This document shows, in pieces, positions 929 through 53,189 of a DNA stretch of 53,803 nt. The stretch's first letter is position 1, and each line of letters opens with the position of its first letter. The position numbers and the translations under genes are program-made. This DNA is from a virus: IMG/VR virus record IMGVR_UViG_3300010883_016180, positions 1 through 53,803 of that record. One strand, 5' to 3'. The notes under the pieces were generated by a model. The model was given only the letters and a program-made list of their open reading frames with translations, was not told the DNA's origin and did no database searches.

Positions 929-941
929 GAATTGGATCAAA

Positions 942-972
942 AGGATCGGATCTCAAAGGCAGATCCGATCCT
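942..972 (+). terminator. 12-bp perfect hairpin after first gene
   Basis: AGGATCGGATCT and its exact reverse complement are separated by a 7-base loop, 14 bases after the stop of the preceding gene. A run of ten C (974-983) follows, and a run of nine T comes only at 998-1006. The stem is very stable but the T-run is not adjacent, so it is either an atypical terminator or an mRNA 3'-end stabiliser. The rest of 973-1100 holds no gene I can support. Confidence 0.5.
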
Positions 973-1100
973 GCCCCCCCCCCTATCCCCGAATAAATTT
1001 TTTTTTATAGCCCATGTTCTTACCTTCCGTTTTATTTCTGTAAAAATTACGGTAGTGTCAATGATGGGGTTAATTAGTTATATTGTATTGAGGAAATTCT

Positions 1101-14002: not shown

Positions 14003-17000
14003 TTAATAGTTATTATATTTGCCTCTATTGAATCCAACAATTACTCCTGACGCTGCTCTAAGCTTTCTTTTCATTTTTGGTGCTTTTCCACTATTAATAG
14101 CCCGAACTTGTATGTCATCTAAAACCCGTCCTTCAGCGATTACCGCAATATTCAGATTTTGTGTGCGTGTAGCAGAATCAGTAGAAGCAATAGGGCTAAC
14201 TAGCGGAGTAATTGCTGTAGCAACAGCCCCACGTAATGCACCATGTGTACTCCTGCCAAGGAGTTCAAGTGCTTGTGATGCTACGTTTAACGGCTCTTGT
14301 GCGGCTATTACATAGTCACCAGCTTGGAACCTAGCAGCAAGACCATCTGTGCCAGCGAGAATAGGTCCAGGGGTATCTCCCCACGTTTCTGTTTCTGCAT
14401 CACCTCCCGACGTTAGTTCGTTCCAAGTATCACCTATAAACCGACCCATCTTTTTGAAGTATACTTGGGAATCAGTTAGCTCTTCATCAGGTGTATCTTG
14501 GAAACCCCCAGGTAGTGCGTCTTTAATTCTTTCGATTACGTCATCCCACATTTTACGCAAGGGCTCCCAAAATTCGCCATCTAAAGTCCATACCTCTCTT
14601 ATGCTCTCTACTACCCCTTCGAGGGCACCACCGATCCCTTCTATAATACCTGCTATTAATTCGTAAACTATCTCTGGTAACTTAAACAAAATATCAGTAA
14701 TCAATACTGCAACAATAGTTGGTATAGCTGTTAGAAGGTGCATTATCAATACTTGTATAACATCTGGTACTAGTGTAACTAAAGCTTTAATTAATGCTGG
14801 TAATGTCGATATTAATGCCAGGACAACTTGCGGAACGGCTTCAATAATGGCTACTATTAACAAAACAGCCATAGCTAATATTTCTTCAATAAGATCTGGT
14901 AAAGCTTCAATAATTTTTGCAACAAGCATAGGTACTTCTTTGGCAATAATTACAATAAGATCCAGAACTCCTTTCAGAAGAACCAGAATCAACCCTGGTA
15001 ATGCCATCAGAATGAACATTAGTAGATCTGGTAGTGCTTGTAAAACAGCTTCTATTAGCTTATTTGCACCTGCTAATAGTCCCTCAATAAGCTCTGGTAA
15101 AGCTGTCACAATACTTTGAACAATACCTGGAACAGCTTTCACAAGATGAACTACAAGATCACCTATTCCTTCTATAATTTTCAAAGCCCCTGCAACTATA
15201 GCTTCAACTAGCGTATCAAATAGAGTTTGAGACTGTTTTGCAAATTCTTCTTCGCTTATCTTTCCCTCGGCAAGTGCGGCTTTTAAATCATCTATATTTT
15301 CGCCTGATAGCGGTGCAAATAATGTATCGAAGATACTAGTTAAACCTGTCACTAATGCGTCAATAATATCAGGTAATTTATCTGTAATTAAGAATATTAA
15401 GGTAGTTACAAGATTAGGTAATTCAGTAACGATAACGTTTACAAGTTCTGGAATTAGAGCAATAAGCATGTTCACAACACTTGTTATGACGGGACCAATT
15501 CCCTGTAATAACGCTGTTAGAACCACTGGAATTCCAGCAACAATAGCACTTAGAAGTTCTGGCAACTTATCTATAAGTCTTTGAACAACTATAGGTGCAG
15601 CGGTGACGATAGCGTCTACAAATTTTAGAGCTTTATTTACTGCATCATCAACGAACTGTGTTGCTGCTGCTTCTGGGTTCGCGGTTCCTACTCCCTCGGC
15701 TCTTGCTTCATCATATTCTCCTTGTGTTATTGTTCCAGCCGCAAGTTCATCATCCAATTCTTTAAGTCTTGCTGCTGCATTTTCAGAGTCTTCCAGAATA
15801 GCGTTTGCACCACCTTGCATCATATCTAAAAGATTTAAACTAAATCCACCTGTCATAAACGAAATAGCTTGATTTGTCATCTCTGCTATTTTCATAATGG
15901 CTTTTCCAACCATAGATGCAGCAGAAGCAATACCTTTAAACGCTGCTCCCGCTGCTCCTACCATTGCTCCAAGAACAACCATAAAGCCTTTTACGCTTAT
16001 CTTTCCTAGTGTTGCAGCAATTTTCGGTCCTAGTTCACCAAATTTTCCAGCTATCTTTCCTACTGATTCTCCAACACGTTCTTTGACGTTTCCGATTATT
16101 CCTGCTAACTTAGGAAATTTATCTTTAGCTGCGCCTATCATCCCACTAAGCGCACCTTCAAGCGGTTTTGCCAGGAATTTAAAGCCCTCAAAAATCTTAC
16201 CTATTCCACCTTTCCATGCTTTTATATATGCCCCAAGTGCTTTCATAGTAAGTTTATAAAAGCGCGTATCGGTCAGCATTTTTGCTTTATCGTTTTCTGC
16301 TTGTGCTTCTCCTAATGTTCTTAGTCTTTCAGTTTGCTCCATTAGTTTATCAAAATCTGCACCTCCGTCTGGAAACATCTTTGCAATATCATTTTTTCTT
16401 CTATTATAGTCCAGTTGGATTTTTATCCGTTCTTCGTAAAAGTCCATTTCAGAATTAATTAGTTCTGTTTGGTTTTTCTTCAAAGCAACGAAAAGAGCTA
16501 TGCCCATTCCTGCTAGTACGCTTAAAGCACCAGAACCTTTTAAGATTCCTATTAGTTTATCTTGGCTATCTTGAAGCCCCTGTACAAATTGTGCGCCACC
16601 TTCTGTTTCTGCTATGCCTAGATCGGCATACATTTTACCAACTATGGCTGTGCGTTCGGCAGCATACTGTTGTTCAATGAGTAGTTTTGCTTGTGCAGCT
16701 TTCGCAGTTATATCTATTCCATGGTCTTCTGCGGCTTTGATAATGTCATTTAGGTGATCAAATTGGTTGTCTTTCCAGTCTACTAGTTGTGTTAATGCAG
16801 CTTGTTCTTGTCCAGCGGAGGTTGTTAATTTCTCAATCCTTTCATCTATAATCCCGTTGAGTTCAACTGTTGTTCCTCTATTTATTCTTACTTTTTCTTC
16901 CCCCATGCGTTTGTCATGTTCTAGTGTAGCCTCACCCGCTTTTTGTTGGTGATGTTGTTTAATGCCTTCCTCAGACATTAGTAATTGTGTAGATTTGAGT

Positions 17001-20000
17001 TCTCTAGCGTCTATTGTTTGTTTTGCTGCTGTATGTTTACCTACATAGTCATTTAAGGCTTGATTTGCTGTAGTATAGGCTTCACTGTCAACGGCTATTG
17101 CTTTAGTTTCAAATTTTCCTTCTAGTAATTTTTGCGCTGTAATAAAGTTGTTGACATAATTGTTAAGTGTATACTCTGCCTCATTAAAACCAGTTTTATT
17201 AATCGTATCTACAAATCTTGCATGATTCTGAGTTGCTTCGTTTACAAAGCCTCCAAATTTAGCAGTAAATTCGTCGGTGTTCATTTCAGGCATTTCCACT
17301 ACAAATGAACCATCAGCTATTGATAAGTCATCTACATTAGGTGGACTCCACTCAACACCTTTGGCTACTTCTTCTGCAAATGCTCGTTCTTCAATACTAG
17401 CGTTCTTCCACGCTTCTGATAGTTCTTGAACTTCCTCTGTTAATTTAGCTGGACCCGCTGCTGTTAGTGCATCACGCAATGCTTTTGCAGTTTCATCTGC
17501 CGCCAAATCTACTTCTGTCAATGCCTTTGCATTTTCTCTCTCTTCTTCCGAAAGTTCGCTCCATTTTTTGGCATGAGCATCAAGTAAAGATTGTTGTTCT
17601 TTAGTTACTTTTCCTGTTTTGCGAAGACTTTTCCTAACCGCTTCCCCCCAATCTGATTTAGGAGGTGGCATCCCTATTGAATCAAAGAGTTGTGATGACC
17701 TAGATTTTAATTTTTTAAAGCTCTCTAAAGCTTGTTTTTCCTCTTGCGTAATAGCTTCAAGTAGACCAGATAATTCCTTTTTATGTTTATCTTCTGATAT
17801 TTGTAGTTCTCGATCTGCTTTATTTCTTAAAATATCGACAACTTTATCGCTTGCGTCTTGTTCTATTTCTAATATTTCTTTCTCTTTTGCTTTTGCTAAA
17901 TTAATCATTTTTTGATTAAAAGCCGCAGCAATTAGCTTCATTGCTAACCGACCGTCCCTGTAGACCTCTACCCTTCTTTTTGAAGATACCTTTCCAAGTT
18001 TAAGCAGATCATTTATGACCTTTATTTCTTCTTTTTGTAAGTCTTTAAAAACTTTTGCAGATTGTTGAGCTTCGGCAATACCAGCCTCACTTGGATCAAT
18101 CAATTCTGCTACTTCTTGTTGTAAAGAAATAATTATTTGAATTCTTTTATCTTTTAGTTTTTCTAATTTATCAAGAAGTGATTTTAGTTTATTAGCGGCA
18201 CTATCTGCTTCTGCTCCTACTTTTCTTATACCCTCACTAACAGGAGTAACGTCTATATCCAACATTCCCATAAGAGCGTCATGCCATTTCTGATTTAGCT
18301 GAATCCAATGCGCGGTTGATGATTGTATATTTACAAATGATGGTTCTAATTGTGTGTTGAGTACCGATATGAAATTATCAAGATCATCAGTATCAGTTAC
18401 CGTTCCAATTATGCCTTTAACGTCATGCCACGCAGTTAAATCAATTTGTGGTATTTCTGGAATGGTGATTATATCTGCTTCTCCTAGATCGTTAAGAAGC
18501 TCTTGTAGGTCTTTAAGATCTTCTTCAATTTCTCCTATTAATAGACGTTTTGCACCACTTTCTGACTCACTAACTGAATCCAAAAACCCTGGATCAGGAA
18601 GTTCTGCATACTCTTTGCTTTTAGTAACAACATCTTGTAGAGCGTCTTTTAATGAGGTATTTGCATTTTGGTATCGATTGATATTTTCTATCTTTTTGTC
18701 GCTTTCTGCTAGAATATCGGCTTCAATACCCCTCATGTTCATAAGTTGTGGATTTAATTCACCAGAGTAATCGTCAGCGAGATTACTTACCGCTATTCCT
18801 TGCTTCTTCAAAGTCTCTGCAAACGCGATTGATGCTCCTTCTATTTCTGTACTAGATCCACCAAGATCTTTAAATACCTTAATTCCATCTTTCATTTCAG
18901 TTGTAAATTTTTGTACTCCTTGTGTTCCTCCTTCCATAGTGTCAGAATAGTCTTTAAGACTTATCTGTGCGCTCTTTAGCTCTGTGCTACCAAAACGAAT
19001 ATCTCCTGTAGCTTTATCTACTGAGCTAGCAAATCTTTCAGTTGATAAAGCAGCAATATTTTCTGCACCTACAACTTCATCTAAAGAGGTTTCTTGGAGC
19101 TTTCTTGCTGCAACAAGGTCTAATACTACATCGTATAGTTTACCCCCTGCCATTATTTGTGTATTAAAATATTTTTCTGGTGCGGCTTGTTTCTGTTCCT
19201 CAGTTAGATTTCGTAAATTATCTAAAGTTGTTTTTAACGATACATTAAGTTCGCCTCTTACGTCCAGTTCATCGCTAATTGCTTTAATGCCTACTCGTTG
19301 TTCTACGTTGCTTACTTGATTAAGATACTCTTCTAGAACTTTAGTAAATTCTGTATATGCTGTCTTTTGTGCCACAATCTTTTGGGTAAGCAAATCTGTT
19401 TTATCCGCTGCTGCTCTGCTAGCAATTTCTATACCTCCCATAGCCCCTATAAATAGACCAAGTGCTGCCACGATCCCAAGGGGTCCAAGTAAGGCTAATT
19501 GAGCTTCTGCCAAACTTGCGGCTAATGTATGAAATGCCAGAGATGCTGTTGTGGCTGTACCAGCTAGCAGAATCAGTGCTTTTATGAATCCATATACTGC
19601 TGCTGTCATTGAAACTATACTAAAGCTAGCAAACATTACTGCCAATAATTTAGTAATGGTCGCAATTACAGAGATCCAATCATATAAAGCTTTAGCAAAA
19701 CTCATTGCATGTAAAACATTTTTTACTAAAGTAGCAGCAATTACTTCGCTGTTTGACTTTAACTTATTTGCTACATCACCAAAAATAGCCCCTGTAGATT
19801 TTCCTATTTCATTTAATGATATTTTAAAAGCTCTAATTAAATCATCTACAACTGATTTTAGTCCTTGGATTACATGTTTAATACTTGCAAATTGCTCTTC
19901 TGTTCCAGTAGGTCCACCTTTTAAGGCATCAAATAAAGTTATTTGTAGTTCTTGAAATGCAGATTGTAATATTTGAAACTGACCAACTGTACTGGCTTTG

Positions 20001-21034
20001 ATCATATCGTAGGTCTTTTTAGTAACCCCACGCATTTCAGACATTTTATTCATCAAATCTTGAACAGGAGTTATTGTCTCCTTTGAGTTTTCTCCAAGAT
20101 CTCCAACTGCTGTACTAGCGTCATGCAATTGAGAAGAGATTTTTGCTACGTCTGCTGCTGAAATCTTATTTACAATAGGTACAAGTTGATCTGCTGTTAA
20201 TCCCGCTTTTCCTAATCTTAAAAACGCTTGTTCTAGACCAACTACTCTTGGGTTTACTTCTTCCAGTGGTATATTTAATGCCGCGAGTGCTTTTTTGGCT
20301 TTATATGTCGGTGCTGAAAGAGCTAGCATTGATTGTCTGAAACGAACACCAGCCATTGAAGATTCAAGACCAAGGTTTCTAAACTGAGCCAACATAGCAA
20401 CAGTCTCTTCTAAAGACGCACCTAGAGAAGACCCTGCCGAACCACCATACCGCATTGATGTGGCTAGTCCCTCAATGTTATAAAGAGAGTTCTGAGCAGC
20501 GGTAGTCATAACATCAGTAATTCGTGTAGCGTCTTGTGCAGCAATACTAAATTGCTTCATAGTTGCAGCAACTAAAGTAGTGGATTGGTTCATTGATATG
20601 AAGTTTGCACCAGCGAATTCTAATGCGGTTCCAGAAGTTGCTATAATGTCAGCCATCGACATACCAGCGCGAGCCAATTTCTGCATCCCTTCTGCCGCTT
20701 GGGTTGCTGTAAACAGGGTAGATTGCCCCAACGACCTAGCTTGATCTTCTGCCCCTTTAAGGGAGCCTGTAAGTGGATCTATTCCCCTAATAGAACCCAA
20801 GGTATACATAGCATTTTCAAATTTTGCACCAGCTTCAACAGCAGTTACTCCGAATTTAGCAACAGCAACCCCGGCTAGTGCTGCTGAAGCTGCCATTACA
20901 CTAAAGGCTTTTTTACTTTGTTTAGAAACAGTCGTGGAAAACCTGTTCATGTTTCCAATGGCTTTATCTAGCTTTTTATTAAAATCCCTAGAATTAAGCC
21001 CAATCTCTACATCTATTCTTTCTGCCCATGCCAT
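14003..21034 (-). CDS. Tail tape measure protein
   Basis: The longest gene in the window (2,343 residues). It sets tail length and is ejected during infection. Residues about 45-340 match the TP901-type tape-measure core: VEAGAKFENAM, then SLGQSTLFTATQAAEGMQKLARAGMS, and an SMRYGG/LEETVAMLAQF block. Hydrophobic segments follow at about 435-545. Charged coiled-coil regions lie around 980-1150 and 1450-1560. From about 1810 to 2130 there is a remarkable series of amphipathic units of roughly 20-25 residues, each beginning with a Pro-containing turn such as LPELL, VPDVI or LPDLI. The gene follows the frameshifted chaperones by 12 bases with AGGGA upstream of the ATG. At about 0.15 nm per residue it predicts a tail near 350 nm (inference). 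Confidence 0.95.
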   Translation of the reverse strand: MAWAERIDVEIGLNSRDFNKKLDKAIGNMNRFSTTVSKQSKKAFSVMAASAALAGVAVAKFGVTAVEAGAKFENAMYTLGSIRGIDPLTGSLKGAEDQARSLGQSTLFTATQAAEGMQKLARAGMSMADIIATSGTALEFAGANFISMNQSTTLVAATMKQFSIAAQDATRITDVMTTAAQNSLYNIEGLATSMRYGGSAGSSLGASLEETVAMLAQFRNLGLESSMAGVRFRQSMLALSAPTYKAKKALAALNIPLEEVNPRVVGLEQAFLRLGKAGLTADQLVPIVNKISAADVAKISSQLHDASTAVGDLGENSKETITPVQDLMNKMSEMRGVTKKTYDMIKASTVGQFQILQSAFQELQITLFDALKGGPTGTEEQFASIKHVIQGLKSVVDDLIRAFKISLNEIGKSTGAIFGDVANKLKSNSEVIAATLVKNVLHAMSFAKALYDWISVIATITKLLAVMFASFSIVSMTAAVYGFIKALILLAGTATTASLAFHTLAASLAEAQLALLGPLGIVAALGLFIGAMGGIEIASRAAADKTDLLTQKIVAQKTAYTEFTKVLEEYLNQVSNVEQRVGIKAISDELDVRGELNVSLKTTLDNLRNLTEEQKQAAPEKYFNTQIMAGGKLYDVVLDLVAARKLQETSLDEVVGAENIAALSTERFASSVDKATGDIRFGSTELKSAQISLKDYSDTMEGGTQGVQKFTTEMKDGIKVFKDLGGSSTEIEGASIAFAETLKKQGIAVSNLADDYSGELNPQLMNMRGIEADILAESDKKIENINRYQNANTSLKDALQDVVTKSKEYAELPDPGFLDSVSESESGAKRLLIGEIEEDLKDLQELLNDLGEADIITIPEIPQIDLTAWHDVKGIIGTVTDTDDLDNFISVLNTQLEPSFVNIQSSTAHWIQLNQKWHDALMGMLDIDVTPVSEGIRKVGAEADSAANKLKSLLDKLEKLKDKRIQIIISLQQEVAELIDPSEAGIAEAQQSAKVFKDLQKEEIKVINDLLKLGKVSSKRRVEVYRDGRLAMKLIAAAFNQKMINLAKAKEKEILEIEQDASDKVVDILRNKADRELQISEDKHKKELSGLLEAITQEEKQALESFKKLKSRSSQLFDSIGMPPPKSDWGEAVRKSLRKTGKVTKEQQSLLDAHAKKWSELSEEERENAKALTEVDLAADETAKALRDALTAAGPAKLTEEVQELSEAWKNASIEERAFAEEVAKGVEWSPPNVDDLSIADGSFVVEMPEMNTDEFTAKFGGFVNEATQNHARFVDTINKTGFNEAEYTLNNYVNNFITAQKLLEGKFETKAIAVDSEAYTTANQALNDYVGKHTAAKQTIDARELKSTQLLMSEEGIKQHHQQKAGEATLEHDKRMGEEKVRINRGTTVELNGIIDERIEKLTTSAGQEQAALTQLVDWKDNQFDHLNDIIKAAEDHGIDITAKAAQAKLLIEQQYAAERTAIVGKMYADLGIAETEGGAQFVQGLQDSQDKLIGILKGSGALSVLAGMGIALFVALKKNQTELINSEMDFYEERIKIQLDYNRRKNDIAKMFPDGGADFDKLMEQTERLRTLGEAQAENDKAKMLTDTRFYKLTMKALGAYIKAWKGGIGKIFEGFKFLAKPLEGALSGMIGAAKDKFPKLAGIIGNVKERVGESVGKIAGKFGELGPKIAATLGKISVKGFMVVLGAMVGAAGAAFKGIASAASMVGKAIMKIAEMTNQAISFMTGGFSLNLLDMMQGGANAILEDSENAAARLKELDDELAAGTITQGEYDEARAEGVGTANPEAAATQFVDDAVNKALKFVDAIVTAAPIVVQRLIDKLPELLSAIVAGIPVVLTALLQGIGPVITSVVNMLIALIPELVNVIVTELPNLVTTLIFLITDKLPDIIDALVTGLTSIFDTLFAPLSGENIDDLKAALAEGKISEEEFAKQSQTLFDTLVEAIVAGALKIIEGIGDLVVHLVKAVPGIVQSIVTALPELIEGLLAGANKLIEAVLQALPDLLMFILMALPGLILVLLKGVLDLIVIIAKEVPMLVAKIIEALPDLIEEILAMAVLLIVAIIEAVPQVVLALISTLPALIKALVTLVPDVIQVLIMHLLTAIPTIVAVLITDILFKLPEIVYELIAGIIEGIGGALEGVVESIREVWTLDGEFWEPLRKMWDDVIERIKDALPGGFQDTPDEELTDSQVYFKKMGRFIGDTWNELTSGGDAETETWGDTPGPILAGTDGLAARFQAGDYVIAAQEPLNVASQALELLGRSTHGALRGAVATAITPLVSPIASTDSATRTQNLNIAVIAEGRVLDDIQVRAINSGKAPKMKRKLRAASGVIVGFNRGKYNNY

Positions 21035-21046
21035 GACTAATCCCTA

Positions 21047-21412
21047 TTAAATCTTTAATCCCATGTTTCTAATTCCACTTAATAGGGCAGCATCTTTTTC
21101 TTCTTTACTTTGTTTTGATTTACTTTTGTTTCCAGTGTATTTTTCTTGACCTTTCTTTTTTGCTTTTTTGCCACCCAATCCGATAGAAACGGCATCAAAT
21201 ATTATACCAAGCATATATGACTTATGCGTCATTATAGAAGCTGATGCAAACCGAATATGGTCCCAACTCATATCAAGAACATCATCAAGCGTGTGTCCTG
21301 TGCTTAAAAGAGTTCCGATAACTAGCTCCAAATCATCTACATATTTTTGAGGATTTATTTGTTTAGCACTCTGTTCACCGCTTGGCTTGCTCTTTTCGCC
21401 AAGCGAATAAAC
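21047..21412 (-). CDS. Tail assembly chaperone, frameshift extension (T part)
   Basis: Second part of the G-GT type chaperone. The frame is open well upstream of its first possible start, and the only early starts are rare codons (TTG at 21331) with no ribosome binding site, so it is best read as the -1 extension of the gene upstream. After the slip at 21418-21412 it adds about 121 residues (VYSLGEKSKPSGEQS..., then KYVDDLELVIGTLLSTGHTLDDVL, ending MGLKI), giving a fusion of about 271 residues. The extension contains a lysine-rich linker near its end. In lambda and relatives the minor fused form binds the tape measure while the main form coats it. The position just upstream of the tape measure gene fits exactly. 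Confidence 0.75.
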   Translation of the reverse strand, partial: VYSLGEKSKPSGEQSAKQINPQKYVDDLELVIGTLLSTGHTLDDVLDMSWDHIRFASASIMTHKSYMLGIIFDAVSIGLGGKKAKKKGQEKYTGNKSKSKQSKEEKDAALLSGIRNMGLKI

Positions 21413-21861
21413 AAAGGGACAATGGCAGTAACCAACTCCTCTAGTGCAAAGAGGTCAGCACATGCCATATCCCCTGCATCATAAGGTGTACTATTAGCGT
21501 TAGCGACTTCCTTTACTTGTTCTAAACATGCACCGTGTCCTAATGAAAAACATCTGCATATAATTAGTAAAGCTTGATCATCAGTGGCGATAGATATGAT
21601 GTTGTCAACCAAGCTTCCAACTGAACCATCAGCACTAAATTTAAAGTCAGAACCAATATCTTTAATTTTATCAAATTCTCTTAAAATCTTAATTTGATTT
21701 CTGGCACTGACTGAGCAAGCTAATTCATATGAATTACCAAAAATATCTTCAATAACTATGTTCGTCGGAGGAACGAGAGTAGCTAAGAAGTTTTTGATAG
21801 AATTCAGAAGATCTTGTTGTTCTGTTTCTTTTATTTCTGTGTCGAGTATTTCATCAGACAT
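21355..21861 (-). CDS. Tail assembly chaperone (G part)
   Basis: A 168-residue acidic helical protein located between the tail tube gene and the tape measure gene, the standard place of the main tail assembly chaperone. It chaperones the tape measure until tube protein polymerises. No sequence motif is diagnostic. The call rests on synteny, size, a strong AGGAG ribosome binding site 7 bases before the ATG, and the canonical -1 slip site about 55 bases before its stop, which leads into the frame that follows. A hydrophobic C-terminal helix (VTAIVPLFIRLAKRASQAVN) is replaced in the fusion form. Confidence 0.75.
   Translation of the reverse strand: MSDEILDTEIKETEQQDLLNSIKNFLATLVPPTNIVIEDIFGNSYELACSVSARNQIKILREFDKIKDIGSDFKFSADGSVGSLVDNIISIATDDQALLIICRCFSLGHGACLEQVKEVANANSTPYDAGDMACADLFALEELVTAIVPLFIRLAKRASQAVNRVLNK
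21379..21418 (-). promoter_or_regulatory. Programmed -1 ribosomal frameshift signal
   Basis: On the minus strand the heptamer C CCT TTG (21418-21412) fits the X XXY YYZ rule in the zero frame (Val-Pro-Leu codons). It is followed by a 6-base spacer, TTTATT, and a perfect 8-bp stem, CGCTTGGC/GCCAAGCG (21405-21398 with 21386-21379), with an 11-base loop. The zero-frame stop is at 21357-21355. The layout matches known tail-chaperone frameshift sites. Confidence 0.75.
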
Positions 21862-21920
21862 ATTGAACTCCTACCTCATCGGGTATTTGTGGAATTAATA
21901 ATCTAAGTATTTAGATTAAA

Positions 21921-22532
21921 TCAAGGTGCATACCATCTATTAAAACGAATAAGCTGTTCATCAGTTCCTAAAGCTTCTCCACCCCATTCATATTCAGATC
22001 TAACTACTTTAAAACCGAATTCAAATGAATGTTCATCAGCACCGAAAGGTATACTGAAACCGGATTCAGATTGGACTTTCCAGCAAAACAGGGTGAGAGT
22101 ATCGCCTGTCGTTGCCATCTGGTGTTGAACAACCATAGCAACTACGTCGTTTAGTGCATTACCACCGAAAGCAAAAGTATCGGTAGAACCAGCAGTACCA
22201 GTTCCAGCGGTTGCCCCTGCTCCAAGCGCACTGGAAAAATTATCAAAATCCCATTGAATTGATGAAAACTTAACTGTGGCACCTTGAGCTTGACAGAAAG
22301 AATAATTGATTAGTTTAGGATTTCCTTGGGTGATGTCCTTTTTTTCTGAGGATAGTTCTACCGTAACCCCATCTTCTCCAATCCAACCTACATCGTTGCT
22401 TGCGATTGTGTTTGGTGTAGCCATTGGAGTTGTTGACCAATCTGCGTCATATCCATCAACAATCTTACTCATGAAAACTCTGGCAGGTCCAAAACTAACG
22501 TTGGATGCCTTTCCACTTGGTATATTTAACAT
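21921..22532 (-). CDS. Major tail (tube) protein
   Basis: A 203-residue beta-rich protein that should form the tail tube. The N-terminal MLNIPSGKASNVSFGPARVF, the VGWIGEDGVTVELSSEKKD strand pair, the ITQGNPKLINY segment and a central W-containing strand are the pattern seen in siphophage tube proteins. It lies immediately upstream of the two chaperone frames and the tape measure, the normal order for tail genes. AGGAG lies about 8 bases upstream of the ATG. An Ala/Gly/Thr loop (GAGATAGTGTAGSTDT) near 105-120 is probably surface exposed. I saw no C-terminal Ig-like domain. Confidence 0.75.
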   Translation of the reverse strand: MLNIPSGKASNVSFGPARVFMSKIVDGYDADWSTTPMATPNTIASNDVGWIGEDGVTVELSSEKKDITQGNPKLINYSFCQAQGATVKFSSIQWDFDNFSSALGAGATAGTGTAGSTDTFAFGGNALNDVVAMVVQHQMATTGDTLTLFCWKVQSESGFSIPFGADEHSFEFGFKVVRSEYEWGGEALGTDEQLIRFNRWYAP

Positions 22533-29287: not shown

Positions 29288-30028
29288 ATGAATATTTCTC
29301 TATTATGTCCAAGCAGAGGAAGACCAGAATTTATTAGGGAATTGATTTATTCGGCCTTAGAGACTGCAAAATATCCAGAAAAATTAGAGTTTATTTTTTA
29401 CATTGATAATGATGATAAAAAAAGTATTTATTCAATAAAGAATAATTTGGATTATTTTATAGAAGACGTTCTAGAAGAACTTAGAATAAAAAACTTCTGT
29501 AGTCCTAAATTTATTTATGACGAACGAATTGTTCTAAGTGAAATGTGGAATAAATGCTGGTTAGAGGCATCAGCAGATATATTTTTTCATTGTGGTGATG
29601 ATATTAGATTTAGAACGAAGAATTGGGACGAAATAGTTTTAAATAAATTTGAAGAATATAATGACAAAATAGTATTTGTTTACGGAAGAGATGGTATTCA
29701 GCCTAAAACATTTGGGACACATGGTTTTTTACATCGAAATTGGACTAATTTATTTGGTTATTTTGTTCCACCGTACTTTTCCAGTGACTATAACGATACA
29801 TGGTTAAATGATGTTTCAAAAGAAATTAAAAGGCATATTTTTGTAGATATTTATACTGAACATTTACACCCTGTCGTTCATAAACACCATTGGGATAAAA
29901 CCCATAAAGAAAGGATGGTTAGGGGAAAACTAGATAATGTAGATGATTTGTATATTGAAAAAGAACCTGAAAGAAAAGAATGTTGTAAAAAACTTATAGA
30001 ATTTATAAAAACCTTTAATGGAATATAA
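29288..30028 (+). CDS. Glycosyltransferase-like protein (GT-A fold)
   Basis: A 246-residue protein starting MNISLLCPSRGRP, a typical opening of family-2-like glycosyltransferases in phages. An Asp-Asp metal motif, HCGDDIRF, lies at 101-108 and a first acidic strand (FYIDNDD) at 37-43. It probably transfers a sugar from a nucleotide donor; acceptor and sugar are unknown. AAGGA lies 10 bases upstream of the ATG. It is followed after one base by the nucleotide-sugar dehydrogenase gene, which suggests a shared pathway. Confidence 0.7.
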   Translation: MNISLLCPSRGRPEFIRELIYSALETAKYPEKLEFIFYIDNDDKKSIYSIKNNLDYFIEDVLEELRIKNFCSPKFIYDERIVLSEMWNKCWLEASADIFFHCGDDIRFRTKNWDEIVLNKFEEYNDKIVFVYGRDGIQPKTFGTHGFLHRNWTNLFGYFVPPYFSSDYNDTWLNDVSKEIKRHIFVDIYTEHLHPVVHKHHWDKTHKERMVRGKLDNVDDLYIEKEPERKECCKKLIEFIKTFNGI

Positions 30029-30029
30029 A

Positions 30030-31274
30030 ATGAATATAGGATTTATTGGACTTGGGAAACTTGGTCTTCCCTGTGCTTTGGCTATTGAAAAAGCTGGACA
30101 CCAAGTATGTGGATATGACATAAGTACTCAAGTTAAGGAAATATTAGAAAGCAAAATTCTTCCGTACAAAGAGATTCATGCGGATAAATATTTAAAAGAT
30201 CACAATATTGAATTTTGCTCAGTAGAAGATGTGGTTCGACAATCAGACATTATTTTTGTTCCCATACAAACGCCACACAATCCAAAATATGAGGGGGTTA
30301 CACGTTTGCCCAGCGAGCGTGTAGACTTTGATTATTCCTATCTTATAACGGGAATACAGGGGCTTTCTGACGAGATTCAGCGACAACGACAAGATAAAAT
30401 TGTTGTGATTATCTCAACCGTATTGCCAGGAACAATTGAGCGTGAAATTAAACCATTGTTATGTGACCATGTAAAGCTTTGTTACAACCCTTTTTTCATT
30501 GCTATGGGAACAACAATTAACGATTTTGTAAATCCAGAATTCGTTTTATTTGGGGTTGAAGATGAAAACGCTTACGAAGTAACAAAAGACTTTTATTCTA
30601 CCATTCATAGTAAACCGATGTATCGCTGTACTATCGAAGAAGCTGAAATGATAAAAGTTACATACAATACTTTTATTACCATGAAGATTTGTTTAGCAAA
30701 TACTGTAATGGAAGTAGCTCATAAACTTAAAAACATAGATTGTGATAATATCAGCAAAGCTTTAGCTATGGCAGATGAACGAATTATCAGTTCCAAATAT
30801 TTACTTGGTGGGATGGGTGATGGTGGAGGATGCCACCCAAGAGACAATATTGCCCTTAGTTGGCTAGCTAGAGAATTAGATTTATCATATGATTGGTATG
30901 AAAGCCTTATGATTTGTCGAGAAGAACAAACAGATTGGTTAGCAAAATTAATCGTTGAGGAAGCATTAGATAATACTCTTCCTATAGTCATTCTTGGCAA
31001 GTGCTTTAAAAAGGAAACAAATCTTGTAGTTGGAAGTCCTTCTATTCTTCTTAAAAACTTACTTGTTCAAAAAGATATAGAAGTAGAAATGTATGATCCT
31101 TGGATTGATGACTGTAAGCCTCCTTTGAATTTACCTGCTGTGTTTTTTATAGGAACAAACCACGATGTTTTTATGGAATATGATTTTCCTGACAATAGTA
31201 TAGTTATTGATCCGTGGCGAATGAATCTAAGAACCGAAAATGTAAATTATATTCCTGTAGGAAACTCAAAGTAG
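30030..31274 (+). CDS. UDP-glucose/GDP-mannose dehydrogenase family
   Basis: A 414-residue NAD-dependent nucleotide-sugar dehydrogenase that would oxidise the C6 hydroxyl of an NDP-sugar to the uronic acid. The N-terminus carries the Rossmann GxGxxG motif (GFIGLGKLGLP, 4-14). The middle has the conserved EEAEMIKVTYNTFITMKI helix (Lys209, Lys219). The catalytic cysteine lies in GGMGDGGGCHPRD (Cys268), where the family usually has a GGxCxPKD-like sequence. The C-terminal domain contains ILGKCFKKETNLVVGSP, equivalent to the usual LGLAFKPxTDDxRxSP. I chose the ATG at 30030, which starts at the Rossmann strand and follows the upstream stop; an ATG at 30018 overlaps the upstream gene. The exact sugar cannot be told. 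Confidence 0.88.
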   Translation: MNIGFIGLGKLGLPCALAIEKAGHQVCGYDISTQVKEILESKILPYKEIHADKYLKDHNIEFCSVEDVVRQSDIIFVPIQTPHNPKYEGVTRLPSERVDFDYSYLITGIQGLSDEIQRQRQDKIVVIISTVLPGTIEREIKPLLCDHVKLCYNPFFIAMGTTINDFVNPEFVLFGVEDENAYEVTKDFYSTIHSKPMYRCTIEEAEMIKVTYNTFITMKICLANTVMEVAHKLKNIDCDNISKALAMADERIISSKYLLGGMGDGGGCHPRDNIALSWLARELDLSYDWYESLMICREEQTDWLAKLIVEEALDNTLPIVILGKCFKKETNLVVGSPSILLKNLLVQKDIEVEMYDPWIDDCKPPLNLPAVFFIGTNHDVFMEYDFPDNSIVIDPWRMNLRTENVNYIPVGNSK

Positions 31275-31344
31275 AGATATAAATTACAGTCTTTAAAAGA
31301 CCGTGAAAGAATAATTTAGTTTAAATATAAATAATGAGACACAA

Positions 31345-32142
31345 ATGAATAAAGATAAATATTCTGCACTTTTTTCTAAATCAGTAAACGAATGGTCTAA
31401 ACCCCCTATAGATGGAATAGGATACCTTCATAGCGAAGAGCTTTTAAAGATAAACGATTATTCTCTTAAACAGATGGTTCTTTCTTTTGTAAATACTAGA
31501 TATGATATTCATAGTTCTAGAAATCATAATAACTTGTGGAGAAAATACTCTGGCTTGGATTCAACTTTCAATAAAACAGTTATTGATTTTGGTTGCGGCA
31601 GCGGAATTGAATCCCTTGAATTAGCAAAGCTAGGAAACGAAATAATTCTATCCGATATATCTGAAAATAATTTAAAATTAGCGGAGCGAATCCATAATCT
31701 TTTTGGTTTTAAACCTAAAGAATTAGTCTTAATCGAAGGGAATAAACCTTTCTTTGGCTGTAGTAAATTCGATATATTTCATTCCTGTGGTGTTCTTCAT
31801 CATACGCCTTATATGTCTGAAATTATAGAACATTCTATTAGTTTTTTTACTGGAAATCCATATTACAGGGTTCTATTGTATACCGATGTTTGTTGGAAAA
31901 TTAGGACAGATACTGATCTGGATTATAAGACTCCAATACATCTTCAAAAAGGCTTTAAGAGGTTTGTTAAAGCAATGGACGATGTTGGATTTTATGCCGA
32001 TTGGTATGACTATAAAAAGCTAACTTCAATATTACCAGAATCATTAAAGATAAAATCTTTTAATTATATAGGTGGTGACTGTTTGAAAAATCAATATGCA
32101 GTAGTCACAATACAGGGGAAAAACGATGACTCTGAATTATAG
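31345..32142 (+). CDS. SAM-dependent methyltransferase, class I
   Basis: A 265-residue methyltransferase. Motif I is VIDFGCGSGIES at 79-90, followed by a strand ending in an acidic residue (EIILSDIS) that binds the SAM ribose. HSCGVLHHTPYM then fits the motif IV region, with an LHH often seen in small-molecule methyltransferases. The 75 N-terminal residues may form the substrate lid. The gene lies after a 70-base gap in the glycan cassette and overlaps the next methyltransferase gene by 17 bases. The substrate is probably a sugar or other small molecule (inference from neighbours). Confidence 0.8.
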   Translation: MNKDKYSALFSKSVNEWSKPPIDGIGYLHSEELLKINDYSLKQMVLSFVNTRYDIHSSRNHNNLWRKYSGLDSTFNKTVIDFGCGSGIESLELAKLGNEIILSDISENNLKLAERIHNLFGFKPKELVLIEGNKPFFGCSKFDIFHSCGVLHHTPYMSEIIEHSISFFTGNPYYRVLLYTDVCWKIRTDTDLDYKTPIHLQKGFKRFVKAMDDVGFYADWYDYKKLTSILPESLKIKSFNYIGGDCLKNQYAVVTIQGKNDDSEL

Positions 32143-32854
32143 TGAAATATACAAATATAACTATTTTAAAAAATGCGATGGAATGATTTCATGGGACTCG
32201 CAAAAGTTAAAATTTGGGGATGCGTTTGCAGCAATTTGTTATGCTCACGGTATCTATTGGGAACAAATACAAAAATCATTTCCTCAAATTGGGGCACTTG
32301 GAAAAGTTGAAACAACCCCATATACCATTCAAGATCAAATAAACTTTATTCAGTCCAATAAAACGAGAACACCAAAGAAAATATTGGAAATAGGTGGAGG
32401 ACGAGGTGAAGTAACTATATTTCTCGCTAATCTTGGCTATGATGTTGTTTGTATAGAACCAGGAAAAGGAGCAGAAATTTGGTTTAAACAAACAAGTAAG
32501 CTGTTTTTTTCTAAGAAGTTACAGTATACTTTGTTGAATGGGTGTCTAACTGAATATATTAATCATCCATTCATGGAAGATTTTGACACTGTATTATTTG
32601 TTGAAAGCTTAGAGCATATTTTAGAAGAAGATTTTAATAAGTTCTATCCTAAAATATTAAAAACATTAAAGAAAAATAAAGGGACTTTTGTAGTAACCAA
32701 TTGGATGGATTACCATCCACTACCTGTTGGCTGGATGGCACCTCCTGACCAACATTGTCGTTTAATAAATGATGATCTTTACGATGAAATGAAACAACAA
32801 TTTGATGTATGTAATTATAGAAACGGATCTCACCTTTGCCTGTCATTTAGTTAA
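32126..32854 (+). CDS. SAM-dependent methyltransferase, class I
   Basis: A 242-residue methyltransferase with motif I ILEIGGGRGEVT at 86-97, the acidic strand CIEPG, and a motif IV-like stretch VLFVESLEHILEED. The 80-residue N-terminal extension (MISWDSQKLKFGDAFAA) is unlike that of the neighbour, so the two are not a recent duplication. It overlaps the upstream gene by 17 bases with AGGGG about 8 bases before the ATG, which implies translational coupling. An O- or N-methyltransferase of the glycan cassette is the best guess. Confidence 0.78.
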   Translation: MTLNYSEIYKYNYFKKCDGMISWDSQKLKFGDAFAAICYAHGIYWEQIQKSFPQIGALGKVETTPYTIQDQINFIQSNKTRTPKKILEIGGGRGEVTIFLANLGYDVVCIEPGKGAEIWFKQTSKLFFSKKLQYTLLNGCLTEYINHPFMEDFDTVLFVESLEHILEEDFNKFYPKILKTLKKNKGTFVVTNWMDYHPLPVGWMAPPDQHCRLINDDLYDEMKQQFDVCNYRNGSHLCLSFS

Positions 32855-32859
32855 TAAAA

Positions 32860-33702
32860 ATGTATAAAAATAAAAAAATATATGCCGTTTACAGATGTTT
32901 GTATGGAGAAGATTTTATAAAAGAATCTATAGAGTCTATTATAGATTATGTCGATAAAGTATTCGTTCTGTACTCAAAAAAGATCTGGGGAAACGTAACT
33001 TCAGTAGTATATGAAGGCGAGATTATAGAGTTTCCTAAACCGTTTGATAACTTGCTAGAAAAAGTAAAAGAAATCAAAAGCAGCAAGATAATATTATTGG
33101 AGCAAGGAGAATTCTGGACTAACGTTCCATGGAATAATTATACTTCCTTAATAAATGGAATAGTCATACCTAAGTATGGAAAACCAGATGTCTTTGTTTT
33201 ACCAGAAGCAGATCATGTGTTCGCTATAGGTGACTTTAGACCTTCTTTGGATTTGTTTTACGAGTCAGATTTTAAGGTTGCAAAAACCCAACAAATAGAG
33301 CTTTGGAAATCACCTAATCATTGCCTTCCATACAGAGAAAGGATTGGAGTTGTTTTTTGGAGGACAGAAGATTTCGATATTTTTCCAAATACTCATGGAG
33401 GAGGTCAACCAACAACAGATCTTACTTTGAAAAACCATTGTCTTCCAATACCTGTTTATAATCTTGGTTTCATGGTTTCCGAAAAAAGTATGTATTGGAA
33501 AATATTGACAGCAATAGCATTTGCAGAAAAGATAAGAGACAGTCCACCTAATTTAAATTGGTATAAAAATACATGGTTGAATTGGGACTTTTTATATAAC
33601 AATAAAAATTTAGAACCAGCTCTTGGTTATGAGAAAAATATTCCAGAAGCGATTAAATATGAAAACTGTAGACTTCCATTATCTATATTGGAAAGATTTT
33701 AA
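32860..33702 (+). CDS. Glycosyltransferase-like protein, paralogue A
   Basis: A 280-residue protein. The opening MYKNKKIYAVYRCLYGEDF and the following IDYVDKVFVLYSKKIWG look like the first strands of a GT-A fold. PDVFVLPEADHVF near 110-122 supplies an acidic ExDH metal-binding motif. It is paralogous over its whole length to the protein encoded at 35763-36728 (same start, same IPKYG...D, same HNLGF/YNLGF and NWY/NWF...TW segments). The pair brackets a radical SAM and a methyltransferase gene. Transfer of a sugar to an unknown acceptor is inferred. The ribosome binding site is weak. Confidence 0.6.
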   Translation: MYKNKKIYAVYRCLYGEDFIKESIESIIDYVDKVFVLYSKKIWGNVTSVVYEGEIIEFPKPFDNLLEKVKEIKSSKIILLEQGEFWTNVPWNNYTSLINGIVIPKYGKPDVFVLPEADHVFAIGDFRPSLDLFYESDFKVAKTQQIELWKSPNHCLPYRERIGVVFWRTEDFDIFPNTHGGGQPTTDLTLKNHCLPIPVYNLGFMVSEKSMYWKILTAIAFAEKIRDSPPNLNWYKNTWLNWDFLYNNKNLEPALGYEKNIPEAIKYENCRLPLSILERF

Positions 33703-33705
33703 GAG

Positions 33706-35070
33706 ATGAAAAACAAAAAAACTGTAATAAGAAGAGCATCCATTATGGATGGATTAGTTGATTTAGAAATAATAAAAGAAGAAAACTCTGAAAAAGTAAT
33801 AATACACAGGTTCGCTAAAAGGGGTCATGTTTCAAATTACATTGAAAACTATGAGTTTATAGACTCCAATCACGAAAGCAAGATACTTCCATTAACAGAA
33901 GAATACGCAAACAAAATAATTGATAGAGCAGTAGAAGGAATTCCGTACTCTAGTATTTTCATATTTTATTCGGATGATGTTGTTTTTGAAGGAAGTGAAA
34001 GCAAAGAAAAATCAGAAGATGAGCATAGATATACTTCAACAGGAATAAAGTTTTGGCGGCATCAGTCACAAATGCTGGCATACCAAAAAAATACAGCAAA
34101 TTCCATAATATCTACTCATATCTCTCCAGAGGGGGCATGTAATTTAAAATGCCCATACTGCTCTGTTACATATAGAGATACCCATTCAAGATTAGAGTTG
34201 GACACCATTAAGGACTATGTAGAGAAGCTACAGAGCCGTGGACTTAAAGCTGTTATCCTCACAGGTGGCGGGGAACCAACAGCATACAAGAGCTTTAATG
34301 AGCTTGTTCAATGGTTGAAGTATGAAAGAGGTCTTTCTGTTGCGCTTATAACTAATGGAACACTAGCTAAAAAAGTTGAAAAAGAAACACTACAAGCCCT
34401 TTCTTGGCTAAGGGTAAGCATAAACTTATTCAATGGTTGGGAACATAGAATTGGAAACAACTTAGACATAAACCATCTGTCTGATGATTGTATTGTTGGA
34501 TGCTCTATGGTTTATACAGTAGAGCATGAATCTACAGAAGAAATGCTAACAGATAGATTAGAAACCTTAAAAAAGGTTTCAAAAATAGCTGATAGAATTC
34601 AGGCTAGATATATTAGATTGCTGCCAAATTGCTTATTAGAACAAAAGCACTTGGTGTTACAGCACAAGTCTTTAGCCAACATGCTTTCTAAGGTAGATGA
34701 TAAACGATTTTTTCATCAATACAAGGTGCATGGCGCACCCAAGTCCAATGTTTGTCATCAGTCTTATTTTAGACCATATCTAAGTGAAGAGCCTTTTGGC
34801 GACACAGGTGTTGGGGGAACAGTTTACCCATGTGATAGTGTTGTTCTAAATGATTCTTATCAGCATTTTGCTAAAGAGTATCAACTATGTAGACCAGAAG
34901 ATATTTTGGATTATTTGGATGGAAAAATAAAACCAAGATTTGATCCAAGAGAAAGGTGTAAAGGGTGTGTTTTCACTGACAATGTAGATATGCTTGATGA
35001 TTGGAAAAACAATAAGATAAATAAATTTCCACAATTTAAGTCATCTTTAATTCACGAAGAATTTGTATAA
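33706..35070 (+). CDS. Radical SAM enzyme with C-terminal Cys cluster
   Basis: A 454-residue iron-sulphur enzyme. The radical SAM motif is CNLKCPYC (Cys145, Cys149, Cys152), followed by the GGE-type SAM-binding motif TGGGEP (186-191) and an ALITNGT strand. Five further cysteines at about 350, 376, 395, 418 and 421 (last pair CKGC) resemble a SPASM/twitch domain holding an auxiliary 4Fe-4S cluster. About 135 residues precede the barrel and match nothing I know. It would generate a 5'-deoxyadenosyl radical to modify a substrate. SPASM enzymes usually act on peptides or proteins, but the sugar-gene setting also allows a carbohydrate. The gene starts 3 bases after the upstream stop. Confidence 0.85.
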   Translation: MKNKKTVIRRASIMDGLVDLEIIKEENSEKVIIHRFAKRGHVSNYIENYEFIDSNHESKILPLTEEYANKIIDRAVEGIPYSSIFIFYSDDVVFEGSESKEKSEDEHRYTSTGIKFWRHQSQMLAYQKNTANSIISTHISPEGACNLKCPYCSVTYRDTHSRLELDTIKDYVEKLQSRGLKAVILTGGGEPTAYKSFNELVQWLKYERGLSVALITNGTLAKKVEKETLQALSWLRVSINLFNGWEHRIGNNLDINHLSDDCIVGCSMVYTVEHESTEEMLTDRLETLKKVSKIADRIQARYIRLLPNCLLEQKHLVLQHKSLANMLSKVDDKRFFHQYKVHGAPKSNVCHQSYFRPYLSEEPFGDTGVGGTVYPCDSVVLNDSYQHFAKEYQLCRPEDILDYLDGKIKPRFDPRERCKGCVFTDNVDMLDDWKNNKINKFPQFKSSLIHEEFV

Positions 35071-35085
35071 AGATAGTAAGACAAA

Positions 35086-35739
35086 ATGAAAAAGAATAAA
35101 TTTAACGAAGATTATTATGAAAGAGGGCAGCAATTAGGAATCAGTGGATACACTGATTACCGGTGGCTACCAGAGCTTACTATTCCTATGTGCCGCAGTA
35201 TTGTAAAATATTTAGAAATAAAAGAAAAAGACTTATTATTGGATTTTGGGTGTGCAAAAGGATTCATTGTAAAAGGATTTAATGACTTGGGATACAATTG
35301 TTTCGGAACAGATATAAGCCAATACGCAATATCTAAAAGCCCATCCGATATAAGAAATAAAATAATTATGTTTTCAGGATATGAGTCTATAGAAAAAATC
35401 TTGTCGTATTCAGGAAAAGATAAATTTGATTTTATTATTTCAAAAGATGTATTTGAACATATTGAATACTCTGAAATAGAGTCAATTGTTTCTGTTCTTT
35501 CAAGATACTGTAATGCTTTATTTGTTGTGGTTCCACTTGCTTTAAATCAACAGTATGTTGTTACAGAGTACGAGGGGGATGTAACGCATATAATAAGAGA
35601 AGATATGCACTGGTGGCTATCGTTGTTTATTAGGAACGGGTTTCGGGTATGCGAAGCAAAACACCAAGTAAAAGGCATAAAGGAAAACTGGAGTCATTAT
35701 CCAAAGGGGAATGGGTTTTTTAGTCTAAATACATATTGA
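35086..35739 (+). CDS. SAM-dependent methyltransferase, class I
   Basis: A 217-residue methyltransferase with motif I LLDFGCAKGFIV at 51-62, the acidic FGTDIS strand, and motif IV IISKDVFEHIEY. The N-terminal FNEDYYERG is common in phage and bacterial methyltransferases of glycan clusters. It is the third methyltransferase of the cassette and lies between the radical SAM gene and the second paralogous glycosyltransferase. The substrate is unknown. A weak ribosome binding site precedes the ATG. Confidence 0.8.
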   Translation: MKKNKFNEDYYERGQQLGISGYTDYRWLPELTIPMCRSIVKYLEIKEKDLLLDFGCAKGFIVKGFNDLGYNCFGTDISQYAISKSPSDIRNKIIMFSGYESIEKILSYSGKDKFDFIISKDVFEHIEYSEIESIVSVLSRYCNALFVVVPLALNQQYVVTEYEGDVTHIIREDMHWWLSLFIRNGFRVCEAKHQVKGIKENWSHYPKGNGFFSLNTY

Positions 35740-37687: not shown

Positions 37688-39571
37688 TTACTCAGGAATA
37701 TCTTCGGTATCTATTAGTTCTCCTGAGAAATCAATTAGTCCACCCATGCCTTGTAAATGTTCACAGTAGAAATATAGTTTATCAGGTGTTGTATTATCGG
37801 TAATCATTTCAACATATGCACCATCTTCACCTGCTTTTCCGTAATATTTAATTCCTTTCTTATATTCTTTTCCATTTGCATGAATTCCATCATAGGTTTC
37901 ACTAAACCGAAAAGAATGATCCGAATTACTAATATCATTTTGATTAAGAATATAAGTAAATCCTTTTACTAGAACAATTTTATCAATTACATTTCCATCA
38001 AATGCAAATTTATGATCTATAACTGTGATTTCTACATTATTAATTGTTTCTGGTAATGCTATATCTAAATTTTCTAGTTCATCCTCACTTCTACTTTCTA
38101 AAGTAATCGGTTGTTTTATTTCTTCATTACCAAATAAAGGTGGAGGTACCTCCTCTTCTAACTCTTCTAACACTTGATCTATCTCTATTTTTACTTCATC
38201 TTTAGGGGCTTTGCTAACTTCGTGACCTTGTATTATTTCAGCAAGAGCTTGTGGCATTCCCGCTACTTCAACTGTTGGAACATCGCCACCTATAATTGGA
38301 AGAAGACCAAGACCTTCCCGTATTTCGTTTCGTGTCATTATTCCCTGTGTGACATAGTTACGATATGTGCTTGAAAGATGAAGTTGTTCTTGAGTTGATA
38401 ATCTAGATTCTCTATCAAATTTAAATTCAATAAGACGAGCAACTTCTCTGCTTTTTACAATTGCAGGTATAATTTGAGCATTGATTTTAGCTTGAATTAA
38501 TTCCAGTATAGGAGTTACAAGATGAGAAGCAGCAACGTCCATTTGAACAGTAGCGGTAGCTTTGGGGATGCCTTGTGTCATTCCCATTTCAACAGGCATA
38601 ACCCCAAATACGCGATAAATAACTCGCCTAATATCTTGAATTATTTCGTGCATTTGAATGTCTTTGGGGGTTCTTCGCAATTCAAGCCACTTTGCACCTA
38701 TACCAGTTGGATCGGGGGTGGTCATTACTCTTACTTTATGATCTTGTCCTTTTAGGCGTTGCAAATCGGCTTTAGCCTCTTCTGCTGCTTTTCCAGCAAT
38801 TCCAGCTAATATTAAAATACCGGGAGGAACCTCATCGGCATCAAGATTTAACATAGCGTGTTCAGTCGCCCTCATTAACGCTATTACTTGATTGACAAGC
38901 GATTCAATTAAAGGGTTGCCTGATGGCAATGCTGTGTTCTTAAATAATGATAAATACATTATTTGTTTGGCTTTAAACTTTTGTTCTTCTCCAGTGCTAT
39001 TTGATGGGGTCGAGAAATATGTTCCTTCTTCAAAAATATTTTGATCATAATGTAAAAGCCTTCCAAATTCATCAATAACTGGAGAGATAGTACAACCACG
39101 AAGTGGAATTAATTCTTGTAGATTTCCTCTACGATCATATGCAAGCTCTAAAACCCCTGCATCAAAAACTAAACAATCCGTTAGCATAGAAGTCATTATT
39201 TCTTGCCAAGTGTCACCATTTCTGTTTGGGTTTAAAAAGAAATTATTTACACTATGTGCTATTTTTTGAAGCTCTTCATACTCTGGATTTTGTGGACTGA
39301 CTTTGGGAATTACTAACCAATCAAATGTGGCTACTCTTCTAACAATAGAGTCTATACATGCTCTAACATCAGCACATCTTTTATATACTACCCATAAGTC
39401 AGAATCCGATAAAAGTCGATCACTATAGCGATTTAGCCCTACTCCAACACTAGAACCTCCAAAATAACTAGAACTATAATGCAATCCTTTTCTTTTTCTG
39501 GATTCTATTCCCCATGTTCCTTGTTGTTTTTTGAAAGAGTCAAGATTTAATAAATTTGAAGCTAATTTCAT
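37688..39571 (-). CDS. Portal protein with C-terminal cupredoxin-like domain
   Basis: A 627-residue protein. Residues about 40-450 fit HK97/SPP1-like portals, including RACIDSIVRRVATFDWLV, GVLELAYDRRGNLQELIPL, and the QGIMTRNEIREGLGLLPI segment near the end of the portal fold. It forms the dodecameric DNA gate. After an acidic linker (EELEEEVPPP), residues about 513-612 match a cupredoxin-like domain I know from marine phage structural proteins: KFAFDG, then FTYILNQND, SDHSFRFSETYDG, then LYFYCEHLQGMGG. Possible ligands are His552, Cys603, His605 and Met609, though the usual C-x2-H position is Leu. Portals normally lack this domain. The gene is on the minus strand, divergent from the capsid genes. 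Confidence 0.88.
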   Translation of the reverse strand: MKLASNLLNLDSFKKQQGTWGIESRKRKGLHYSSSYFGGSSVGVGLNRYSDRLLSDSDLWVVYKRCADVRACIDSIVRRVATFDWLVIPKVSPQNPEYEELQKIAHSVNNFFLNPNRNGDTWQEIMTSMLTDCLVFDAGVLELAYDRRGNLQELIPLRGCTISPVIDEFGRLLHYDQNIFEEGTYFSTPSNSTGEEQKFKAKQIMYLSLFKNTALPSGNPLIESLVNQVIALMRATEHAMLNLDADEVPPGILILAGIAGKAAEEAKADLQRLKGQDHKVRVMTTPDPTGIGAKWLELRRTPKDIQMHEIIQDIRRVIYRVFGVMPVEMGMTQGIPKATATVQMDVAASHLVTPILELIQAKINAQIIPAIVKSREVARLIEFKFDRESRLSTQEQLHLSSTYRNYVTQGIMTRNEIREGLGLLPIIGGDVPTVEVAGMPQALAEIIQGHEVSKAPKDEVKIEIDQVLEELEEEVPPPLFGNEEIKQPITLESRSEDELENLDIALPETINNVEITVIDHKFAFDGNVIDKIVLVKGFTYILNQNDISNSDHSFRFSETYDGIHANGKEYKKGIKYYGKAGEDGAYVEMITDNTTPDKLYFYCEHLQGMGGLIDFSGELIDTEDIPE

Positions 39572-52181: not shown

Positions 52182-52201
52182 AATTAGGGACAGAATTCTA
52201 T
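52178..52201. terminator. Hairpin between convergent genes
   Basis: ATAGAATT and AATTCTAT form an 8-bp stem with an 8-base loop, spanning the stop codons of the convergent GMP reductase and thaumatin-like genes. No long T-run follows on either strand, so it is a weak candidate for a shared terminator. Confidence 0.35.
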
Positions 52202-53188: not shown

Positions 53189-53189
53189 A

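Follow-up and report, generated by a model that had tools for sequence, protein, structure and literature searches.

The two small open reading frames that lie between the major tail protein and tape measure protein genes of the uncultured virus IMGVR_UViG_3300010883_016180 very probably undergo -1 programmed ribosomal frameshifting of the kind known from the G/GT genes of phage lambda, by which a minority of the product would be made as a G-T fusion. This reading comes from the entire stretch of DNA analyzed, the 53,803 nucleotides of that record (hereinafter the window), along with 14 distinct relatives of the gene pair, all on viral metagenome contigs, giving a family of 15 members with the window included.

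The G/T gene pair and its neighborhood

The gene order on the minus strand of the window is tail tube, G, T and tape measure, i.e. two small ORFs are placed between the major tail and tape measure proteins. Sequence profile searches with the product of the upstream gene (21921..22532), a major tail (tube) protein, recovered PHROG 2175 (annotated as 'protein with Ig domain') at E 3.4e-10, followed by PHROG 117 (annotated as 'major tail protein') at E 1.8e-5; its match to the Pfam model Phage_TTP_17 falls below the cut-off of that model. The next gene downstream (14003..21034) codes for a tape measure protein of 2343 residues (PHROG 1272, E 5.3e-50). Gene G (21355..21861) has an AGGAG ribosome-binding site at 21868-21872, as read from the sequence, and specifies a zero-frame product of 168 aa. 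The T segment, which occupies the -1 frame after the slip (21047..21412), comprises 121 codons and a stop, and the joined translation (21047..21861) gives a predicted G-T fusion of 271 aa, the size that an earlier sequence-only reading of this DNA had estimated. The same reading had held that the -1 frame is open and devoid of a start signal of its own, which is borne out by the 121 open codons and by the candidate starts of the T frame up to codon 50, a TTG at codon 27 and an ATG at codon 47, upstream of neither of which was a Shine-Dalgarno-like sequence found. Before the slip, the -1 frame is open for 12 codons back to the last stop. Having no plausible start, the T ORF of the window would be missed or mis-started in a reading of the gene pair.

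The prediction that G is a tail assembly chaperone is based mainly on the gene order, to which weak profile and fold matches are added. The G protein of the window matched none of the Pfam and PHROG models, and just one of the 15 members of the family had a match of this kind, a weak one to PHROG 6959 'tail assembly chaperone' (E 0.0031). In a fold search the three best BFVD matches of G were two proteins labeled 'tail assembly chaperone' and one labeled 'frameshift protein G' (E about 0.1, TM-scores 0.26-0.36); the corresponding search of the PDB gave no match at E 0.001, and a BFVD search with the fold of T gave nothing usable.

Several other features were observed in the window. A block on the plus strand (30018-35736), which has the tail genes on one side and the portal gene on the other, encodes a UDP-glucose dehydrogenase-like protein, two methyltransferases and a radical SAM protein. 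The 627 aa portal protein (37691-39571, minus) matches tail fibre profiles at residues 531-623, and this C-terminal match is separate from the portal match itself at residues 55-458. A thaumatin-family protein (PF00314, E 2.8e-36) is encoded at 52187-53200 (minus) of this tailed-phage contig. At about 936-983 (minus) a run of ten G is followed by a strong inverted repeat, GGATCGGATCT...AGATCCGATCC, and then by TTTT, an arrangement that is terminator-like.

The candidate signal in the window

The candidate signal lies on the minus strand at 21418-21379 and was read from the window sequence at the place where the sequence-only reading had put it. Its slippery heptamer CCCTTTG (C_CCT_TTG; 21418-21412) is in phase 2 of the ORF 21861-21355, the zero-frame codons being GTC CCT TTG. 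It is followed by a 6-nt spacer TTTATT (21406..21411) and then by a proposed stimulatory stem of 8 bp, in which the 5' arm CGCTTGGC (21405-21398) pairs with the 3' arm GCCAAGCG (21386-21379) across an 11-nt hairpin loop, GAAAAGAGCAA (21387..21397). All these elements had been described in the earlier reading with the same frame and lengths, and are exact. An additional U-G pair (21406/21378) extends the stem of the window from 8 to 9 bp. Thus, a few nucleotides downstream of the heptamer there is a predicted stimulatory structure, which is a common, though not obligatory, feature of lambda-type pairs.

Taken alone, the heptamer and the stem are weak evidence, only modestly beyond chance. None of 300 dinucleotide shuffles gave a best-stem score as good as that of the window (p 0.003), and the hairpin alone, folded on the transcribed strand, has an energy of -13.3 kcal/mol, a value also reached at 4% of 150 positions drawn at random from the surrounding genes. 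Folded as the plus strand, which is not the transcribed one, the segment 21379-21440 gave -18.2 kcal/mol (z -2.31), with 5 of 200 shuffles equally stable. Among the 826 XXXYYYZ strings of the window, 32 have a stem of at least 8 pairs 4-9 nt further on, when counted in any phase on both strands, with G-U pairs allowed and a loop of up to 15, rules that are looser than those of the stem test used below. Since such a combination is not rare in the window, the case was put to the relatives, and it is the conservation of the signal in them that takes it beyond chance.

We also considered a pseudoknot between the hairpin loop and a pyrimidine-rich stretch in T, which found no clear support across the 15 members. 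By eye, the loop segment AAAAGAG (21396-21390, minus) can pair with CUCUUUU in T (21312-21306), and in the relative L004 the best match between loop and T falls at the place corresponding to this pair, but for the window itself another partner scored higher (p 0.110), and no clear signal emerged in the family. The lowest p values among the 15 members (L044, 0.030; L004, 0.033; L019, 0.053) would be explained equally well by purine-rich Arg/Lys codons lying opposite Leu-Ser codons.

Relatives of the pair in viral metagenomes

The relatives were reached by starting from the genes for the tail tube and tape measure proteins and continuing with alignments, the window's own G or T having recovered none when used as queries against the viral contigs. 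They come from 13 different metagenome ids and are strongly diverged, with identities to the window of 22-42% in G and 26-37% in the T segment, and the G+C content of the members ranges from 34 to 72%. tblastn searches of 50,697 phage records (phage 9g included) with the G of the window, the G of L016 and the T of L022 gave no match, nor did searches of the same records with the L004 and L021 tail tube proteins; likewise, the G and tail tube alignments scanned against 84,980 species genomes recovered no relative. The tape measure proteins do match cultured phages, with low identity and partial cover, in 784 records for that of the window and 1366 for that of L019.

Redundant loci were not counted. 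Those left out were L005, L012, L013, L020, L023, L038 and L039, which are two contigs of L004/L005 that are alike in the region; L006-L011, which are tape measure genes of the L004/L005 contigs; L017, L036 and L037 (as L016); L026 and L027, which are near copies of L025; and L035, L041, L043 and L045, which are the contigs of L014, L018, L015 and L024. Distant tape measure matches accompanied by other chaperone genes (L002, L003, L028, L029 and L030-L034) were also left uncounted. Candidate sites are seen at some of these distant loci, namely TTTTTTG in L028, AAAAAAC in L029 and GGGAAAC in L034. Upstream of the tape measure gene, L030-L033 have another pair of small genes whose frames overlap, in which no XXXYYYZ site passed the script filters, which may be too strict for such short ORFs.

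Conservation of the slip site

At the equivalent codons 14 of the 15 members possess CCCTTTN, the last base being G in six (window, L004, L015, L016, L019 and L046), A in five (L014, L018, L021, L040 and L042) and T in three (L022, L025 and L044). A slippery X_XXY_YYZ, as expected of a lambda-type pair, is therefore in phase and conserved within the overlap in these 14 members. From the slip site through the homologous T segment the -1 frame is open in all 15. The exception, L024, has GCCTTTT (L024:3403-3409) and keeps an 8-bp stem; the altered first base costs it the first P-site pair. The sequence-only reading had named as its refutation relatives that keep the gene pair and lack both heptamer and stem, and none of the 14 relatives is of this kind, as 13 keep CCCTTTN and L024 its stem. 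A second in-phase XXXYYYZ is seen further down the overlap in L021 (AAAAAAG) and in L022 and L025 (GGGGGGC).

The heptamer is conserved under synonymous constraint, i.e. beyond what the encoded residues explain. The product of codon-usage probabilities over the 14 matching members, with usage taken from long ORFs picked by script rather than from curated genes, is about 1e-23 if they are independent; because the members are related, this combined probability, like those of the family tests given below, is too strong as it stands. L046, with 72% G+C, uses TTG even though Leu codons beginning with TT have a share of 0.05 in its own usage. A control along the gene covered every codon column of G with a residue common to 10 or more members, 34 columns in total; the two most constrained are the Pro codon of the heptamer (CCT in 15 of 15, with 6.3 expected) and the codon preceding it (GTC in 9 of 10 Val, with 4.3 expected); the next column has a p of 0.028.

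The stem across the family

For each member we sought the best uninterrupted stem with a 5' arm beginning 4-9 nt after the heptamer, with hand-entered Turner stacking energies serving for the stem, arm-swap and pseudoknot scores. Nine of the 15 members have a stem of 8-13 bp whose 5' arm begins 4-8 nt past the slip site. Against dinucleotide shuffles, the stems anchored in this manner gave a Fisher p of 2.4e-10 over all 15 members treated as independent, with L004, L014, L015, L016, L025 and L044 individually not reaching p 0.05. When the anchor was shifted to nearby positions, none was as good for seven members and 6-91% were as good for the other eight, among them L004, L014, L015, L016, L022 and L025 with 18-91%. 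Of 150 random positions at each member's own locus, the fraction with a hairpin as stable as that of the site is 0-0.007 in L018, L019, L021, L022, L040, L042 and L046; it is 0.04-0.08 for the window, L004 and L024, and 0.13-0.32 for L014, L015, L016, L025 and L044.

That the two arms are matched to each other is seen upon swapping them, so that the 5' arm of one member is offered the downstream sequence of another: stacking energies average -15.6 kcal/mol for the real combinations and -11.0 kcal/mol for the swapped ones, and none of 20,000 permutations matched the former. When the nine strong stems are compared, 10 positions are covered by five or more members, and each of these positions shows 2-5 pair types; the fourth codon past the heptamer has all four Watson-Crick pairs at its third base. 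Covariation of the stem in relatives, proposed in the sequence-only reading as a check, is accordingly found for the family as a whole, but fails in five of the 15 members (L004, L014, L016, L025 and L044), whose arms individually do no better than swapped ones, and the distance of the 3' arm varies. Among the nine strong stems the enclosed loop is shortest in the window, at 11 nt, followed by L040 (22 nt) and L019 (32 nt); in L046, L021, L024, L018, L022 and L042 it measures 36-41 nt, reaching 41 nt in L018. The short hairpin of the window is retained by L004 in 7 of 8 pairs, including one in which both bases differ, and L016 retains 5 of 8 pairs in that register. The TAG stop codon of G is part of the 3' arm in L018 and L021, where stop and stem therefore constrain each other.

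One reading of this pattern is that the slip site is fixed and the 5' arm keeps its position, the 3' arm having been relocated, with selection acting on a stem at a set distance rather than on one inherited fold; we would give it an even chance. As no single fold would then be selected, covariation scans of plain alignments would miss such stems, and RNAalifold, given 11 of the 15 members in such an alignment, did miss them, returning no pairs and no consensus structure.

Alternatives to ribosomal frameshifting

The arrangement might be thought to arise in the absence of ribosomal slippage if T were a gene in its own right, at which ribosomes initiated internally or re-initiated past the stop of G, and the heptamer were incidental. 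Some ATG, GTG or TTG is indeed present in the T frame 26-49 codons past the slip in 14 of the 15 members, and in two of them a TTG has a suitable sequence ahead of it (GGAG 6 nt upstream in L025 and AGGA 3 nt upstream in L016). The remaining 13 members, the window included, lack a start with a Shine-Dalgarno-like sequence up to codon 50, and in L021 the 26-49-codon stretch contains no start codon of any kind; further, a separate start accounts neither for CCCTTTN in 14 of 15 members nor for the matched stem arms, and we hold it to be very improbable. The break between the frames might instead be a sequencing error or mark a decayed single gene, given that the window is a metagenome contig, in which an indel can yield two ORFs in neighboring frames; the break is however at equivalent codons in 15 distinct members, with relatives of 22-42% G identity from 13 metagenome ids. 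A sequencing artefact is excluded because the break recurs in independent relatives, and an origin by error or decay is exceedingly improbable.

The shift could also be made by transcriptional slippage, for which the six T in a row after CCC in L044 would be favorable. The window, however, has only TTT, where a longer homopolymer would be wanted, and an in-phase XXXYYYN site followed by a stem is in keeping with slippage of the ribosome, such that we consider a transcriptional shift highly improbable. A contribution from an upstream Shine-Dalgarno stimulator, which would be an addition to ribosomal frameshifting, is not claimed; in most members the relevant words fall on conserved Glu-Glu/Asp codons. 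GGAG ends 17 nt before the slip site in the window, L004, L016, L022 and L046, and that of the window is coded by conserved Glu codons; other Shine-Dalgarno-like words are found 16-20 nt before the site in L015, L018, L024, L025, L040 and L042, and a GGAG at 7 nt in L021, with no such word upstream of the slip site in L014, L019 and L044.

Predicted mechanism and comparison with known systems

Under -1 ribosomal frameshifting, most ribosomes translating G would terminate at its stop and a minority would slip back by one base. The Pro tRNA would be on CCU and the Leu tRNA on UUG when the ribosome is held up by the hairpin 6 nt ahead; both tRNAs might then move back by one base to pair with CCC and UUU, after which translation would continue in the -1 frame into T, giving much G (168 aa) and little G-T (271 aa). 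The fusion is predicted to yield the Glu-C junction peptide LVTAIVPLVYSLGE, or LVTAIVPFVYSLGE when the slip precedes the addition of leucine. By analogy to lambda, the role of G may be to bind the tape measure protein, and that of the T tail to recruit the tail tube protein.

These predictions are highly reminiscent of lambda, the slip site of which is G_GGA_AAG and thus unlike the CCCUUUG of the window. A second difference is that only one of the 15 members here matches a chaperone profile, PHROG 6959, and that weakly. In lambda G/GT, according to PMC5009743, the frameshift makes the tail assembly chaperone fusion. The sequence-only reading had remarked that CCCTTTG is not among the most commonly cited phage slip sites, and this can now be refined. 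In PMC4066793, C_CC.U_UU.G is one of 18 heptamers selected for a negative z-score and for shifting at >0.10% in E. coli without stimulators; coliphage 9g is reported (PMC4276943) to use CCCUUUUUUU in its tail chaperone G/T genes. The two phages are alike in a slip motif starting with CCCUUU in these genes, and differ in that the authors infer a -2 shift for 9g at CCCUUUUUUU, where the window has CCCTTTG and a predicted -1 shift. The slip site is therefore not exotic; 9g was the one related phage case for a CCCTTT/CCCUUU slip site, with none other on phage tails among the literature matches listed.

The architecture of heptamer, short spacer and downstream structure as stimulator is also that of the dnaX -1 signal. 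It is shared with the -1 signals of the IS3 family as described in PMC4066793. Unlike the IS3-family and dnaX signals, that of the window has no well-placed upstream Shine-Dalgarno, its GGAG 17 nt away being at the edge of the 6-17 nt range searched in PMC4066793.

Thus, both the mechanism and its place in the genome are well known, and what is new is the phage family and the varying place of the 3' arm. The family adds a divergent lineage of uncultured tailed phages in which a -1 frameshift in the chaperone pair is readable from evolution alone. Should the relocation of the 3' arm be real, a frameshift stimulator can keep its place as its partner strand moves, which would bear on how such signals are searched for.
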